A stretch of DNA of 64,000 nucleotides from Citreimonas salinaria. GTDB taxonomy: Bacteria; Pseudomonadota; Alphaproteobacteria; Rhodobacterales; Rhodobacteraceae. Numbering within the stretch: the first letter of the stretch is position 1; each line of letters begins with the position of its first letter. The stretch spans positions 62,001 to 126,000 of the forward strand of contig NZ_FNPF01000009.1 of the NCBI RefSeq assembly GCF_900107235.1, read 5' to 3'. Position numbers and translations under genes: made by a program. Shown here piece by piece: positions 23,697 through 56,746 of this stretch. The notes beneath the pieces are model-generated. The model worked only from the letters and a program-made list of their open reading frames with translations, did no database searches and had not been told where the DNA came from.

Positions 23697-23711
23697 CAAT
23701 GAGGAATGCCC

Positions 23712-24320
23712 ATGTCCTGGACGGATGAACGAGTCGAGATGCTCAAGAAGATGTGGTCGGAAGGGCAGTCGGCAAGCCAGATCGCCAAGGAACTGGGTGG
23801 GGTGACGCGCAATGCCGTGATCGGCAAGGTTCACCGGCTGGGCCTGTCGAACCGCGCCGGAGCCGCACCGGCCCCCGCGGCGGCCGCCGCCCCGGCCCCC
23901 GAGCCGAAGCCCAAGGCCGAGGCCAAGCCGGCGAAGGAACAGCCGCGCCCGATGCGCGAGGCGACGCCGCCGCCCGCGGCTCCGGCCGCAGCACCGGAAG
24001 AGGTGGCGAACGATCCCGACCCCGCGCCGCAGCCGCTGCGCAAGCAGATCATTCCCGCGGGCCAGCCTCTGCCGCCGCAGCCTTCGGCGAACGAGATCAG
24101 CCCCGAGGCGCTCGCCAAGGTCAGTGCGATCGAGAAGAAGGCCAAGCGGCTGACGCTGATGGAACTGACCGAGCGGACGTGCAAGTGGCCCGTCGGTGAC
24201 CCGGCAACGCCGGATTTCTGGTTCTGTGGTCTGCCGGTCCAGCAGGGCAAACCTTACTGCGAGGCGCATGTGGGCGTGGCATTCCAGCCGATGTCGTCGC
24301 GCCGCGACCGCCGCCGCTGA
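23712..24320 (+). CDS. gcrA: GcrA cell-cycle transcriptional regulator
   Basis: 202 residues. The N-terminal helix-turn-helix begins MSWTDERVEMLKKMW, followed by SASQIAKELGG and TRNAVIGKVHRLGLS, the GcrA DNA/sigma-binding region. A Pro/Ala/Lys-rich linker (about 48-125) leads to the C-terminal zinc-like segment TCKWPVGDP...FCGLP...PYC. In alphaproteobacteria GcrA acts with RNA polymerase on promoters methylated at GANTC by CcrM to drive S-phase genes. The ATG at 23712 is preferred to that at 23706 because GAGGA sits six bases before it. A terminator-like hairpin is in the leader. Confidence 0.95.
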   Translation: MSWTDERVEMLKKMWSEGQSASQIAKELGGVTRNAVIGKVHRLGLSNRAGAAPAPAAAAAPAPEPKPKAEAKPAKEQPRPMREATPPPAAPAAAPEEVANDPDPAPQPLRKQIIPAGQPLPPQPSANEISPEALAKVSAIEKKAKRLTLMELTERTCKWPVGDPATPDFWFCGLPVQQGKPYCEAHVGVAFQPMSSRRDRRR

Positions 24321-28385: not shown

Positions 28386-28477
28386 CGCAACCCCTTTCGC
28401 CCGTCTGCGCGCTGGAATAAGCCCCCTGCGTGGGAAGGGAAAGGGCGGACGCCCGGGTCATCGAGGAGAGGCTGTCC

Positions 28478-29005
28478 ATGACGCTGTGGGTCTTCGGCTA
28501 CGGATCGCTGCTGTGGAACCCCGGGTTCCCGGTGGCCGAACAGCGCCACGGGCGGCTGGCCGACTACGCGCGCAGCTTCTGCATGCGGTCGATCCACCAT
28601 CGCGGCACGCCCGAGATGCCGGGGCTGGTCCTGGCGCTGGACGAACATCCGGGGTCGGTCTGCGAGGGACTGGCCCTGCGCGCCGAGCCGGGGACCGAGG
28701 ACGCGACCATCGCCTACCTGCGCGAGCGCGAACTGGTCTCGTCGGCCTACCTGGAGCGCATCCTGCCGGTCGACCTGACGGACGGGACACGGGTGCAGGC
28801 GGTGGCCTACGTGATCGACCCTGATCATGAACAATACTGCACCCTGACGCTGGACCAGCAGGCGACGATCATCGCCCGCGCGCATGGCGGACGGGGGCCG
28901 AACCCCGACTACCTCTATAACACCGCGCGGCACCTGTCCGAGCTGGGAATCCCCGATCCCGAGCTCGACTGGCTTGTCGAGCGCGTGCGGCATCTTAACG
29001 GATAA
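28478..29005 (+). CDS. chaC: ChaC-type gamma-glutamylcyclotransferase
   Basis: 175 residues from the ATG at 28478, preceded by GAGGAGAG. The substrate-binding motif VFGYGSLLWNPG (5-16), the HRGTPEMPGLVLAL strand and the Y-L-x-x-R-E segment with the catalytic Glu define the ChaC subgroup. These cytosolic enzymes split glutathione into 5-oxoproline and Cys-Gly. The gene is divergent from DUF2125 and 64 bases upstream of the ExbB-like gene. Confidence 0.9.
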   Translation: MTLWVFGYGSLLWNPGFPVAEQRHGRLADYARSFCMRSIHHRGTPEMPGLVLALDEHPGSVCEGLALRAEPGTEDATIAYLRERELVSSAYLERILPVDLTDGTRVQAVAYVIDPDHEQYCTLTLDQQATIIARAHGGRGPNPDYLYNTARHLSELGIPDPELDWLVERVRHLNG

Positions 29006-29069: not shown

Positions 29070-30245
29070 ATGGATCAGGCCGATCTCGAGGCCAGACTGC
29101 AATTCTCACAGCCCGTCCGGCAGGTCGTGCTGATGCTTCTCGTTCTGGGGTTGTCCATCGCCGGGTCGATCGTGGCGCTGCCGCGGGTCCTGCCGGTGTT
29201 CGAAAGCAACCCGTGGTTGAACGGGTTCATCCTGCTGGTCTTCGTCGTGGGCGTGGTCGCGTGCTTTTGGCAGGTGGCGCAGCTGATCTACTCGGTGCGC
29301 TGGATCGAACGCTTCGCGTCCGAGGGCGGGTCGGACAGCCGTGCGCCACAGCTGCTGGCGCCGCTGGCGCAGCTTCTGGGCCGGCGCGACCGGCGGATGC
29401 AGATCACCACCACGTCGACGCGGTCGATCCTCGACTCGGTCGCGCAGCGGATCGACGAGGCGCGCGAGATCACGCGCTACATCGTGTCGCTGCTGATCTT
29501 CCTCGGCCTGCTGGGCACGTTCTACGGGCTGGCGACGACGGTGCCGGCGCTGGTCGACACGATCCGCAACCTCGCCCCGCAGCAGGGCGAGGAAGGCGTC
29601 GAGGTATTCTCGCGCCTGATGAGCGGGCTGGAGGACCAGCTGGGCGGCATGGGCGTGGCTTTCGCCTCGTCGCTGCTGGGCCTGGCGTGCTCGCTGATCG
29701 TGGGCCTGCTGGAGCTGTTCGCGGGCCACGGGCAGAACCGCTTCTACCGCGAACTGGAAGAATGGCTGAGCTCGATCACGCGACTGGGGTTCTCCTCGGA
29801 CAGCGAGGGGCCCGACCTGGGCGCCGCGGGCGTCGTGCTGGATCGCATGGCCGAGCAGATGGAGCGCCTGCAATACCTGTTCACCCAGTCCGAGCAGGGC
29901 CGGTCCGAGGTCGACACCCGGCTGGGGCAGCTGGCCGACAGCGTCGAGCGGCTGACCGAGCGGATCGAGGCGTCGTCGCCTTCGGCCTCGTCGCTGGCGC
30001 GCATCGCGGAGGGGCAGGAACTGCTGGCCGAGGCGATCCGCGAGAAGGAGACATCCGAGGGGCTGGACGCCGAAAGCCGGATGCGCCTGCGCTCGATCGA
30101 CGTGCAGATGCTGCGCATTCTCGAAGAACTGGCCGCCGGCCGGCAGGAGACGATGGCCGAGCTGCGCACCGATCTGTCGACGCTCACGCGCAGCGTGAAC
30201 CAGATCGCGCGCGGCGCGCGGCGCGACGGCGGCGAAGGGGGCTGA
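29070..30245 (+). CDS. MotA/TolQ/ExbB-type proton channel protein
   Basis: 391 residues from the ATG at 29070. Four helices are visible (about 17-38, 50-74, 136-160 and 193-218). Helix 3 has the TolQ-like GLLGTFYGL motif with Thr150, and helix 4 the MGVAFASSLLGL motif, as expected for a five-subunit channel that rotates around a dimeric MotB/TolR-like partner. A long C-terminal cytosolic region (220-391) is mostly helical with heptad spacing. The partner gene starts four bases after its stop. The overall layout differs from flagellar MotA and from TolQ, which lack this tail. Confidence 0.82.
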   Translation: MDQADLEARLQFSQPVRQVVLMLLVLGLSIAGSIVALPRVLPVFESNPWLNGFILLVFVVGVVACFWQVAQLIYSVRWIERFASEGGSDSRAPQLLAPLAQLLGRRDRRMQITTTSTRSILDSVAQRIDEAREITRYIVSLLIFLGLLGTFYGLATTVPALVDTIRNLAPQQGEEGVEVFSRLMSGLEDQLGGMGVAFASSLLGLACSLIVGLLELFAGHGQNRFYRELEEWLSSITRLGFSSDSEGPDLGAAGVVLDRMAEQMERLQYLFTQSEQGRSEVDTRLGQLADSVERLTERIEASSPSASSLARIAEGQELLAEAIREKETSEGLDAESRMRLRSIDVQMLRILEELAAGRQETMAELRTDLSTLTRSVNQIARGARRDGGEGG

Positions 30246-30248
30246 TCG

Positions 30249-32522
30249 ATGGCCCTGTCCCGGCGCACCGGTGGGCGGCTGCAATCGTCGATCTGGCCCG
30301 GTTTCGTGGACGCGATGACCGGCCTGCTGCTGGTCCTGACCTTCGTGCTGTCGATCTTCATGGTCATCCAGTTCGTCCTGAACGAAACGATCTCGGGGCA
30401 GGAAACCCAGCTTGACCGGCAGCAGGAGGAAATCACGCGCCGCGACGACGAGTTGGCGGCGCTGTCGGCCGAGGTGGAGCAGCTGGCCCGCGCGCTGGGC
30501 GTGTCGGAACGCGAGAACACCGCGCTGACCAGCCAGCTGGGCGAGCTGGAATCCACCCTGTCGGACACCGAGACGCGGCTGGCCGAGCAGGGGCGCCTCA
30601 TCGACACGCTGACCGCGACCCGCGACCGTCAGGCGGCGGAACTGGACGCGGCGCAGGACCGGATCGCGTCGTTCGAGGATCGCGTGGCCACGCTTCTGGC
30701 GCAGCGCGACGATGCGCGGGCGCGCGGCGCCGCACTGGCCGAGGAGCGCGACGCGCTGGCCGACGAACGCGACGCCGCCCGCAGCACGATCGCCGATCTG
30801 CGCGCCACGCAGGAAGACCTGGAGGCGGCGCGCGCGCAGGCGATTTCGGAACGCGACGCGCTGGACCTGGCGTTGGCGCAGGCCCGGACCGAGATGGACG
30901 AACAGGTCGAAACCGCGCGCCTGGCCGCCGCCCGGCGCGAGGCGCTTGAGGCGCTGGTCGCGGACCTGCGCGCGCAGAACGCCGAGGCCGAGGACCGCAT
31001 CGGCAGCCTGAACACCCGCGTCGAGGACCTGCAGGAGACGCTCAGCGACGAGGAGGCGCAGCGGCTGGCCGAGGCCGAGGCGGCCGCGGCGCTTCGCCGC
31101 CGGCTGGAAGAGGCCGACGCCGAACTGACCGCGATGACCATGGCGCTGGAGCAGGAGCGCGCCCGCGCCGAGGAGACGCTGACCCTGCTGGCCGCCGCGC
31201 GCGAGGCCGAGGAGGACCTGAACGCCCGGCTGGCCGCGGCGCTGGTCGAGGGCGAGCAGGAGGCGAACGCGCTGCAGGACCGGATCGAGACGCAGGAAGC
31301 CCGGATCGCCGAGCTCGAGACGCGGCTGGGCGAGACCAGCGAGGAGGCCGAGCGCGAGGTCGCCGCGGCGCGCAGCGAAGCGCAGGCGGCCGAGACGCGG
31401 CTGTCGGACCTGTCGGCGCAGCTGGCGCGCGCGCTGGCCCGCCTGGCCGAGGCCGAGGCGCTGGAAGCCGAGGTCGAGACGCTGCAGGCGCGCAACGCCG
31501 AGCTGGTGTCCGAGGTCGATGCGGCGCGCGCAGGCGCGGCGGTCGTCGAGACCCTGCGCAGCGAACTGGCCGCCGCCGAGGCGCGCGCCGAGGAACGGGT
31601 CGAGGAGGCGCGTTCGCTGGAGGAGCAGCTGGCCGCGGCGCTGGCAGCGCGGATGGAAGACCGGGCGACGGTCGAGGAGACGCGCGCGCGCCTGGCCGAG
31701 GCGCTGGCGGCGAAGCGCGCGGCCGAGGCCGCCGCCGAGGAGCGCCTGGACGAGGCCGAGCAACGCGCCGTGCTGCTGTCGGAGGCGCGCGAGACACTGG
31801 CGCAGACCAGCGAGCGCGCGACCGAGGCCGAGCGGGAGACCGAGCTGCTGAACCAGCAGGTGGCCGCGCTGCGCGAGCAATTGCAGGAGCTGCAATCCAT
31901 CTTGGGCGACAGCCGCGCGCGCGACGCGGAAGCGCAGGTGCAGTTGCAGAACCTCGGCTCCGAACTGAACGCCGCGCTGGCGCGGGCCGCGGCCGAGGAA
32001 CGCCGGCGGCGCGAGCTGGAACAGGCCGAGCGCGAGCGGCTGGAGGCGCAGGCGCAGGACCTGCAGCGCTACCGCAGCGAGTTCTTCGGGCGGCTGCGGG
32101 ACGTGATCGCCGAGACCGAGGGCGTGCGGATCGAGGGCGACCGGTTCGTGTTCTCGTCCGAGGTGCTGTTCGACGTCGGCTCGGCCGAGCTGTCGGGGGC
32201 CGGTCGGGACGAGCTGGAGAACATCGCGGGCATCCTGCGCGGCATCGCAAGGGACATCCCGCCCGAGATCGACTGGGTCATCCGCGTCGACGGCCACACC
32301 GACGACATCCCGATCCGGGGCAGCGCGCGGTTCGAGGACAACTGGGAACTGAGCCAGGCGCGGGCGCTGTCGGTCGTGCGCTACATGATCGACGACCTGG
32401 GCATCCCGCCGCAGCGCCTGGCCGCGAACGGGTTCGGCCAATACCAGCCGATCAATCCGGCCGACACGCCCGAGGCGCGGGCGCAAAACCGGCGGATCGA
32501 GTTGAAGCTGACCGAGCGCTAG
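30249..32522 (+). CDS. long coiled-coil OmpA/MotB-like protein
   Basis: 757 residues in three parts. The N-terminus has WPGFVDAMTGLLLVLTFVL (16-34), a single helix with the ion-carrying Asp21 expected of MotB/TolR subunits. A coiled coil of about 560 residues follows (about 47-612), dominated by Ala, Glu, Arg and Leu. The C-terminal OmpA domain (about 616-757) has VLFDVGSAELS, DGHTDDIPI and the peptidoglycan-binding NRRIELKL end. With the upstream ExbB-like protein it should form an ion-driven 5:2 complex whose periplasmic rod reaches the cell wall. The coiled coil is far longer than in known stators. It ends 80 bases from the parC gene. Confidence 0.85.
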   Translation: MALSRRTGGRLQSSIWPGFVDAMTGLLLVLTFVLSIFMVIQFVLNETISGQETQLDRQQEEITRRDDELAALSAEVEQLARALGVSERENTALTSQLGELESTLSDTETRLAEQGRLIDTLTATRDRQAAELDAAQDRIASFEDRVATLLAQRDDARARGAALAEERDALADERDAARSTIADLRATQEDLEAARAQAISERDALDLALAQARTEMDEQVETARLAAARREALEALVADLRAQNAEAEDRIGSLNTRVEDLQETLSDEEAQRLAEAEAAAALRRRLEEADAELTAMTMALEQERARAEETLTLLAAAREAEEDLNARLAAALVEGEQEANALQDRIETQEARIAELETRLGETSEEAEREVAAARSEAQAAETRLSDLSAQLARALARLAEAEALEAEVETLQARNAELVSEVDAARAGAAVVETLRSELAAAEARAEERVEEARSLEEQLAAALAARMEDRATVEETRARLAEALAAKRAAEAAAEERLDEAEQRAVLLSEARETLAQTSERATEAERETELLNQQVAALREQLQELQSILGDSRARDAEAQVQLQNLGSELNAALARAAAEERRRRELEQAERERLEAQAQDLQRYRSEFFGRLRDVIAETEGVRIEGDRFVFSSEVLFDVGSAELSGAGRDELENIAGILRGIARDIPPEIDWVIRVDGHTDDIPIRGSARFEDNWELSQARALSVVRYMIDDLGIPPQRLAANGFGQYQPINPADTPEARAQNRRIELKLTER

Positions 32523-32601
32523 GCCGGCACACGGCGCTCGCGCCTGTCGGCGCATCGCCCCGCCCGCCGTCCCGCTGACCGCCGCGCGCGGGCGAGCGCG
32601 G

Positions 32602-35022
<2,421 letters not shown>

Positions 35023-48272: not shown

Positions 48273-52415
<4,143 letters not shown>

Positions 52416-52510: not shown

Positions 52511-56746
<4,236 letters not shown>

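Follow-up and report, generated by a model that had tools for sequence, protein, structure and literature searches.

The 64,000-nucleotide (nt) stretch of the Citreimonas salinaria genome analysed here (contig NZ_FNPF01000009.1, positions 62,001 to 126,000; hereafter the window) carries two adjoining genes which raise the question of what kind of machine they encode, as gene A specifies a channel subunit of the MotA/TolQ/ExbB type and gene B a transmembrane (TM) protein in which a long coiled coil leads to an OmpA-type peptidoglycan-binding domain. The answer that we prefer, and to which we give about an even chance, is that A and B are a housekeeping member of the ZorAB/TolQR/MotAB superfamily, an ion motor of the A5B2 type that is anchored in the peptidoglycan and has the coil as a compliant shaft or tether. 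A bolder version, which we put forward tentatively and with some doubt, makes the pair a class-wide housekeeping cousin of the Zorya motor whose coiled-coil drive shaft, ~18–143 nm long if straight, carries torque or tension while its length drifts largely by whole or half heptads. If true, alphaproteobacteria would have one more envelope motor in addition to Tol and Mot, and it might be an ancestor or sister of ZorAB.

Architecture and conserved residues

The initial annotation described an ExbB/MotA-like channel followed by a protein with an OmpA domain and a coil, and this description of the locus was borne out by open reading frames (ORFs), Pfam and NCBIfam matches and AlphaFold2 (AF2) models. 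The two genes lie on the same strand and do adjoin immediately, the gap between the stop codon of A and the ATG of B being three bases (30246–30248) and not four as annotated. Hydropathy places the hydrophobic helices of A at residues 19–37, 52–70, 134–156 and 196–214, leaving ~63 residues (71–133) between TM2 and TM3. An AF2 model of A built with 71 sequences (mean predicted local distance difference test score, pLDDT, 82.9) contains these four helices and a helical tail; in the C-terminal half its helices span residues 176–246, 252–302, 305–329 and 334–385, the last three forming the tail, in which confidence is modest (pLDDT per ten residues ~42–84 from residue 231 onward). The model would place this tail, parts of which are conserved in the alignment of Rhodobacteraceae sequences, presumably in the cytosol.

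Gene B matches the NCBIfam model NF006542 (PRK09039) at 768.6 bits (expectation value, E, 6.7e-231; curated cut-off 388), a model which is labelled 'peptidoglycan -binding protein' without further function and which has 627 positions. A single hydrophobic helix (residues 26–44, by hydropathy) follows directly on Asp21. Over the next 565 residues the hydrophobic spectral peak at period 3.5 reaches 4.71, whereas 300 shuffles of these residues never exceeded 1.53, which agrees with the ~560-residue coiled coil annotated initially; no proline occurs in the 543 coil residues counted, and the heptad phase is steady from residue 45 to ~300 and again from ~490. With a coiled-coil rise of 0.1485 nm per residue, a straight, two-stranded rod of 565 residues would measure ~84 nm, close to the 80 nm first estimated. 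The C-terminal domain scores 65.9 bits against Pfam OmpA over residues 640–748, its closest match in the PDB is a putative MotB (1.1e-17), and it contains Asp685 and Arg705, which correspond to the pair that contacts peptidoglycan in OmpA. The features are collected in Table 1. A 1,190-amino acid (aa) antisense ORF (29106–32678, − strand) that spans both genes was interpreted as a side effect of a coding strand that is rich in GC and biased to heptads, and not as a gene.

Table 1. Positions in the window of genes A and B, of their parts and of the gene upstream
Feature	Position	Strand	Size or basis
ChaC-like gamma-glutamylcyclotransferase gene, upstream of A	28430–29005	+	ChaC Pfam, 140.4 bits
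Gene A, channel subunit of the MotA/TolQ/ExbB type, four TM helices and helical tail	29070–30245	+	391 aa
TM3 pore motif LGLLGTFYGL with Thr150 (codon 29517–29519)	29502–29531	+	alignments
C-terminal helical tail of A, residues 221–391, presumably cytosolic	29730–30242	+	AF2
Gene B, TM helix, coiled coil and OmpA-type peptidoglycan-binding domain	30249–32522	+	757 aa, NF006542
Signature WPGFVDA, residues 16–22, Asp21 (codon 30309–30311)	30294–30314	+	conservation
Heptad coiled coil, residues 45–609	30381–32075	+	period-3.5 peak, no proline
Length-variable part of the coil, residues 318–532	31200–31844	+	marker distances
OmpA-type domain, residues 633–757, Asp685 and Arg705	32145–32519	+	Pfam OmpA

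Conservation was assessed in 111 distinct, complete B proteins (113 candidates minus two paralogues that lack the motif), which came from 76 of a set of 80 loci, nearly all from Rhodobacteraceae (at the remaining four no B is complete), from 34 other genomes and from the window. All 111 carry W-[PA]-G-[FWY]-[VI]-D, as WPGFVD in 104 of them, with an invariant Asp21; the initial annotation had named loss of this aspartate among homologues in advance as the finding that would count against it, and no loss was seen. The helix, which it described as MotB-type, is at least as TolR-like (F-V-D-x-M, as in the TolR of this genome) as it is MotB-like. Asp685 and Arg705 of the OmpA domain and the Ser610 and Phe612 of the motif leading into it are likewise each kept in 111/111. 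In A, Thr150, Ser201 and Ser208 are present in all 42 rows of a class-wide alignment (the rows of >330 aa out of 48, two loci being present twice) and Thr150, whose conservation had also been proposed as a check, in 71/71 Rhodobacteraceae rows as well. The LGLLGTFYGL stretch of A aligns with GLFGTVxGx of TolQ and ExbB from the same genome, though the hhalign probabilities are low (37 and 13, respectively). As far as sequences can tell, the residues expected of a 5:2 rotary motor (an Asp in the B helix and Thr/Ser in those helices of A that line the pore) and of an OmpA-type peptidoglycan binder (the Asp and Arg) are in place.

This invariance bears on a rival explanation, in which B statically tethers the inner membrane to the wall and A is a vestigial chaperone for it. 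A coil plus an OmpA domain would suffice for tethering, and OmpA-coil paralogues without the Asp helix do exist; an aspartate kept in 111/111 proteins and Thr/Ser residues kept in 42/42 would, however, hardly be preserved for mere tethering, and we regard this explanation as very improbable. The paralogues in question (L072:4782-6134 and L081:5044-6477, both from genomes of family f131) match the end of B strongly, at 1e-50 or better, and have an apparent signal peptide in place of the Asp helix; they may be motor-less paralogues.

Length and heptad register of the rod

The rod was measured from Asp21 to Ser610, an end marker found in 111/111 proteins, which replaced a looser one (89/111) that also gave clustering modulo 7 in both groups of homologues; the spacing from Ser610 to the start of the OmpA domain is almost gapless. 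The length so defined ranges from 146 to 989 residues, being 295–989 in Rhodobacteraceae (n = 81) and 146–484 elsewhere (n = 30), and B as a whole reaches 1,157 aa in Rhodobacteraceae and falls to 313 aa in other alphaproteobacteria, with coils of up to 965 residues. At 589 residues the window protein is one point in this range, and the initial annotation's 'unusually long' has to be qualified, as longer rods exist. Rod length evolves fast: the window protein and its nearest named relative, from Mameliella, have A subunits that are 79% identical and coils that are 400 residues apart.

Despite this range the lengths are not spread evenly. They are periodic at 3.5 residues, i.e. half a heptad (Rayleigh R = 0.618, n = 111, the best of periods 2–20), and 93 of the 111 fall into three classes modulo 7 (class 1, 53; class 4, 21; class 5, 19). 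When each distinct length is counted once, R is 0.487 in Rhodobacteraceae (64 lengths) and 0.711 elsewhere (24 lengths). As kinship makes the homologues non-independent, we also used non-overlapping nearest pairs: among those with an A identity of at least 65%, the change in length is a multiple of 7 in 11 of 23 where 1/7 would be expected (p = 1.3e-4), and among all 33 changed pairs there are 13 such multiples (p = 3.5e-4). Within Rhodobacteraceae, the distances from Asp21 to two coil markers keep a single heptad phase in 38/38 and 70/72 proteins and that from a third marker to Ser610 in 31/31, the markers having been detected in 38, 72 and 31 of the 81 proteins; between these conserved flanks, in the 28 of 81 proteins where it was measurable, the coil is anywhere from 53 to 615 residues long and changes phase. 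Taken together, the coils hold a single proline in 46,348 residues.

Length is thus free and register largely kept, and selection appears to act on the continuity of the rod and not on its length. The initial annotation had argued from the width of the periplasm that the rod must lie along or fold within the cell wall; with rods of so many lengths, the argument reads as a sign that length is little constrained and not as one that this rod is exceptional. Tandem DNA repeats do not account for coil growth in the window or in Mameliella, where only short arrays were found (6–45 nt, at most 2.7 copies). Internal protein repeats were seen in other coils: L110 and L136 have a repeat of four heptads (28 residues), and L106, whose B has 1,126 aa, one of 39 residues, which is not a heptad multiple.

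In the mechanism that we propose, two B helices would be enclosed by what is probably an A5 ring of the inner membrane, and the passage of ions by Asp21 of B and by a ring of Thr150, Ser201 and Ser208 of A would make the A ring and the B dimer turn against each other. The two OmpA domains would grip the peptidoglycan, with the parallel coiled coil acting from membrane to cell wall as a long, compliant shaft or tether. The periplasm is some 20–30 nm wide and, because most rods exceed this, the rod would lie along the periplasm in most species. A coil of this kind would need a continuous seam and no set length, so turns would be gained and lost largely in whole or half heptads, and the helical tail of A would be another output or a control element. 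The most likely cellular task would be upkeep of the cell wall or outer membrane during growth or division. Length variation that keeps register allows the need for an unbroken rod to be tested directly, the expectation being that register matters and length does not.

Several observations weigh against this motor. Its 5:2 assembly is one that we infer, as we do rotation and the direction of force, the stoichiometry purely by analogy with the family. A scores 20.5 bits against Pfam MotA_ExbB (PF01618) and so does not reach the gathering cut-off of 22.9; the Sinorhizobium meliloti homologue passes it with 23.9 bits, so that A is a diverged relative just below the line. The best Foldseek match of A is ExbB at E 2.4e-3, with none at E <= 0.001, and when the AF2 core of A was compared with known structures an unrelated designed helical bundle (Z 9.9) came above MotA (9.5), so that only the top rows, TolQ at 11.9, ExbB at 11.4 and ZorA at 10.2, are informative; this second look speaks only to the families that it lists. 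For B, AF2 gave a low-confidence model (pLDDT 66.6) that is too poor to judge whether the chain folds back, and the parallel, two-stranded geometry is therefore also one that we infer. As for register, the local heptad phase of the window coil drifts in its middle, from ~300/325 to ~490, 18 of the 111 rod lengths fall in the other four classes modulo 7, only 20 of the 33 changed pairs belong to classes 0, 3 and 4 (p = 0.03), and the 400 residues between window and Mameliella are not a multiple of 7. Finally, 136 of 385 sampled Alphaproteobacteria genomes gave no A at E <= 1e-15, and A is thus not universal.

Distribution and neighbouring genes

At the same threshold, a profile of 24 A sequences (A1) detected A in the remaining 249 of 385 class genomes (214 of the 315 of good quality), including 12 genomes of at most 1.0 Mb among the matches listed, and in 94 of 398 genomes of a phylum sample, seven of them outside the class. 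Six of these seven loci were examined and five have a B partner with W-P-G-[FY]-V-D; none was found at the sixth, L197. Gene A precedes B on the same strand in 77/77 of the loci having a B in a set of 80 (the best 80 among 584 confirmed loci, almost all of them from Rhodobacteraceae). A tblastn search of 72,556 plasmid records gave five matches, all in rhizobial records of 3.5–4.6 Mb. In S. meliloti Ak57 the match is annotated 'MotA/TolQ/ExbB proton channel family protein' and is followed by 'peptidoglycan -binding protein'. One 3.7-Mb S. meliloti record, CP090106.1, is labelled plasmid pSymB yet carries tkt, gap, pgk and rpmE and looks like the chromosome. The A/B system is accordingly a class-wide family, already named in databases and not peculiar to the window genome.

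This distribution also bears on the idea that the pair belongs to a Zorya anti-phage defence system. All 24 members of the A1 profile match the PADLOC models for ZorA1 and ZorA3 (best 2e-15), and B matches ZorB3 at 5e-27, best over residues 616–753. Against this, PADLOC found neither ZorC, ZorD nor ZorE among the ten neighbouring genes scanned, its sole neighbour matches being to an ABC ATPase (best mad3, 8e-31; best NCBIfam model drrA); NCBIfam ZorA scores are 17.8, 14.5 and 14.6 where the cut-offs are 750, 500 and 100; A occurs in 249/385 class genomes as opposed to 3/299 and 11/299 phylum genomes for ZorA1 and ZorA3; and a tblastn search of 50,697 phage records with A gave no match. With no effector among the ten neighbours and scores far below the cut-offs we rejected identity with Zorya, and a defence role seems to us hardly credible. 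The lack of a Zorya effector among these neighbours is also why A/B looks like a housekeeping system.

The ten neighbours include ABC transporter parts, a GcrA-like gene, an M20 peptidase, DUF2125, ChaC, ParC and SDR genes. Upstream of A in the 80-locus set, a ChaC homologue is present at 76 loci and DUF2125 at 64, and ChaC, syntenic in Rhodobacteraceae, is at most a candidate participant; ParC was found within a few kilobases downstream at 0/80. At 30 non-rhodobacteral loci the surroundings are others, with inositol monophosphatase (25) and elongation factor P (20) upstream, an ABC exporter gene (21, of which 18 have E below 1e-100) downstream and rpmE at 17. None of these four was found at the four Rhodobacteraceae loci included in the same scan of 34.

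At 19 of the 30 non-rhodobacteral loci, a gene on the same strand 2–485 nt upstream of A encodes a protein, here called C (e.g. L059:8313-9191), that is secreted and proline-rich and carries a degenerate OmpA domain. In this OmpA fold the consensus AYA replaces GHTD and the Arg of the second motif is retained, and from its sequence and position C could possibly be a third subunit. This would allow a second Tol-like trans-envelope system, in which C is the periplasmic or outer membrane partner and A, B and C constrict or anchor the outer membrane in non-rhodobacteral lineages. The position of C directly upstream of A and the 34–45 bits of its OmpA domain in the five proteins scanned are in its favour. 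In the 80-locus set, however, the C profile found nothing adjoining A (one weak match, E 2.5e-6, lies ~4 kb upstream), the place being taken by ChaC at 76 loci, and in the window genome its matches (E 8e-9 to 5e-6) fall on five sites of generic OmpA proteins. We consider this explanation quite unlikely and keep to the two-component motor.

A lead of a different kind came from S. meliloti Ak57, where a gene for a Sel1-repeat protein that seems to have a signal peptide (L184:4400-5545) lies two annotated genes upstream of A. RgsF (SMc03995), according to two papers (PMC7327166 and PMC5929573), is an essential, periplasmic polar growth factor of S. meliloti with TPR and six Sel1 repeats, and the Ak57 gene may be rgsF. 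Counting genes from tkt2 as SMc03978, as given in PMC9611204, would assign SMc03993 to A and SMc03995 to the Sel1 gene; the same paper gives SMc03994 as ribosomal protein S21, which contradicts that count, and no S21 ORF was seen by eye in the two stretches inspected. According to PMC3687685 a ChvI-bound fragment lies inside SMc03993, and it may thus lie inside A if A is SMc03993. A Sel1 gene (E <= 1e-8) was found at one of 34 other loci and not in the window genome, and Sel1 is therefore no general partner of A/B.

Further from the pair, a GcrA-like cell-cycle regulator (23706–24320, + strand; NF050816, 161 bits, cut-off 280) is encoded ~5 kb upstream of A. Two adjacent, very long ORFs on the + strand (48273–52415, 1,380 aa, and 52511–56746, 1,411 aa) are probably rpoB and rpoC, judged by size and place.

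Relation to known motors

The window genome has its own tolQ-tolR-tolA-tolB-pal, an exbB-like gene and motA and motB in a flagellar cluster, all elsewhere, with tolQRAB-pal and motAB each on contigs other than that of A/B; a PF01618 scan of this genome detected the TolQ, ExbB-like and MotA genes and missed A. This agrees with the initial annotation, which had held the pair to be neither a flagellar stator nor a Tol/Ton system. Both identities were rejected: the first with MotAB on another contig and no flagellar genes among the ten neighbours scanned, the second with tolQRAB-pal on another contig and no TolA or TonB partner among the same ten.

A tree of A, ZorA, TolQ, ExbB and MotA has very long branches and places TolQ, ExbB and MotA inside A with node support of 12–40; it is uninformative at this depth, and profile scores were used in its place. 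The A profile gives 39–58 bits to ZorA type III (ZorA3; 7/7 sequences), 17.2 bits to one of two ZorA1 sequences (E 0.003; no hit to the second at E <= 1), 5.9 to the genome's own TolQ and ExbB each and 0.3 to its MotA, so that by profile score ZorA type III is the nearest relative of A. Other comparisons were weaker. With single sequences from the same genome, hhalign of A1 gave a probability of 1 for MotA, lower still than those for TolQ and ExbB; a phmmer search of the PDB with A alone returned no motor proteins, and the A profile returned coils only. In the structural alignments, the first aligned model residue is 35 or later for TolQ and ExbB, and for MotA/PomA it lies at 14–20 in five of eight cases (27, 28 and 47 in the others), which is in line with A having an extra N-terminal TM helix relative to TolQ/ExbB. 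As a whole, the initial interpretation was supported in part: a pair of the 5:2 ion-motor type still stands by family analogy, and the ZorA type III relative had been left unmentioned.

This kinship gives weight to an explanation in which the pair would sense tension: strain of the peptidoglycan on the coil would unblock the Asp21 ion path and signal through the tail of A, with little work being done or none. According to PMC11890865, ZorAB is a 5:2 complex with an Asp set against a Ser/Thr ring, whose peptidoglycan binding and cytosolic tail are needed for defence, and its structures are presumed to show an inactive state with ordered peptidoglycan-binding domains and a blocked pore. These features supply a model for tension gating, and the ZorAB work fits an active motor, which we prefer, or a tension-gated one alike. 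The conserved parts of the A tail in Rhodobacteraceae also speak for a sensor, and a freely varying rod length suits a tether better than a geared shaft. Against it, the neighbour counts made show no signalling gene consistently beside A/B. The invariant ion-path residues also point away from a sensor but are indecisive, as a sensor could keep them as well. Taken together, we find tension sensing unlikely and retain the motor as our working explanation.

In the literature searched, which was mainly open access and judged largely by titles and abstracts, we found no description of the A/B pair and no mention of the signature WPGFVD; mentions of PRK09039, in the text retrieved, concern a weak phage domain match and a BLUF fusion and not this pair, and the consulted parts of two papers on the Rhodobacter sphaeroides envelope (PMC10470522 and PMC9275681) name no such pair. 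The proteins already have database names, and it seems that the system is undescribed in this literature, which would leave a widespread motor of a large class, one that includes rhizobia and marine roseobacters, with no function described there. Puente-Lelievre et al. (2025; PMC12505986) state that non-flagellar B subunits have no homology to OmpA and leave Zorya out of their phylogenies; the combination of a TolQ/ZorA-like A with an OmpA-type B is at odds with their statement.

Set beside the known systems, the pair combines features of several. Among the PRK09039 families NF006542–NF006546, B exceeds the NF006542 cut-off but is longer than its model. With TolQR/ExbBD the pair shares the core fold, the GLFGT..G motif and the F-V-D-x-M helix of the genome's own TolR; unlike these, A has the additional N-terminal helix and B an OmpA domain and a coil. 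The resemblance to MotAB/PomAB lies in a four-TM A, the Asp helix and a peptidoglycan-binding domain nearest to a putative MotB in the PDB, whereas A has just the short TM2–TM3 stretch and the genome keeps a separate MotAB. With ZorAB (Zorya III/I) it has in common the signatures RYLVGLL.LLGMLGT..GM and AP..GLG.AF, a helical tail and a B with an Asp helix and an OmpA-type peptidoglycan-binding domain. The ZorA3 ORFs are longer (675–729 aa, compared with 391 aa for A) and Zorya is sporadic, whereas A/B lacks effectors among its ten neighbours, is widespread and has coils in B that reach 965 residues.

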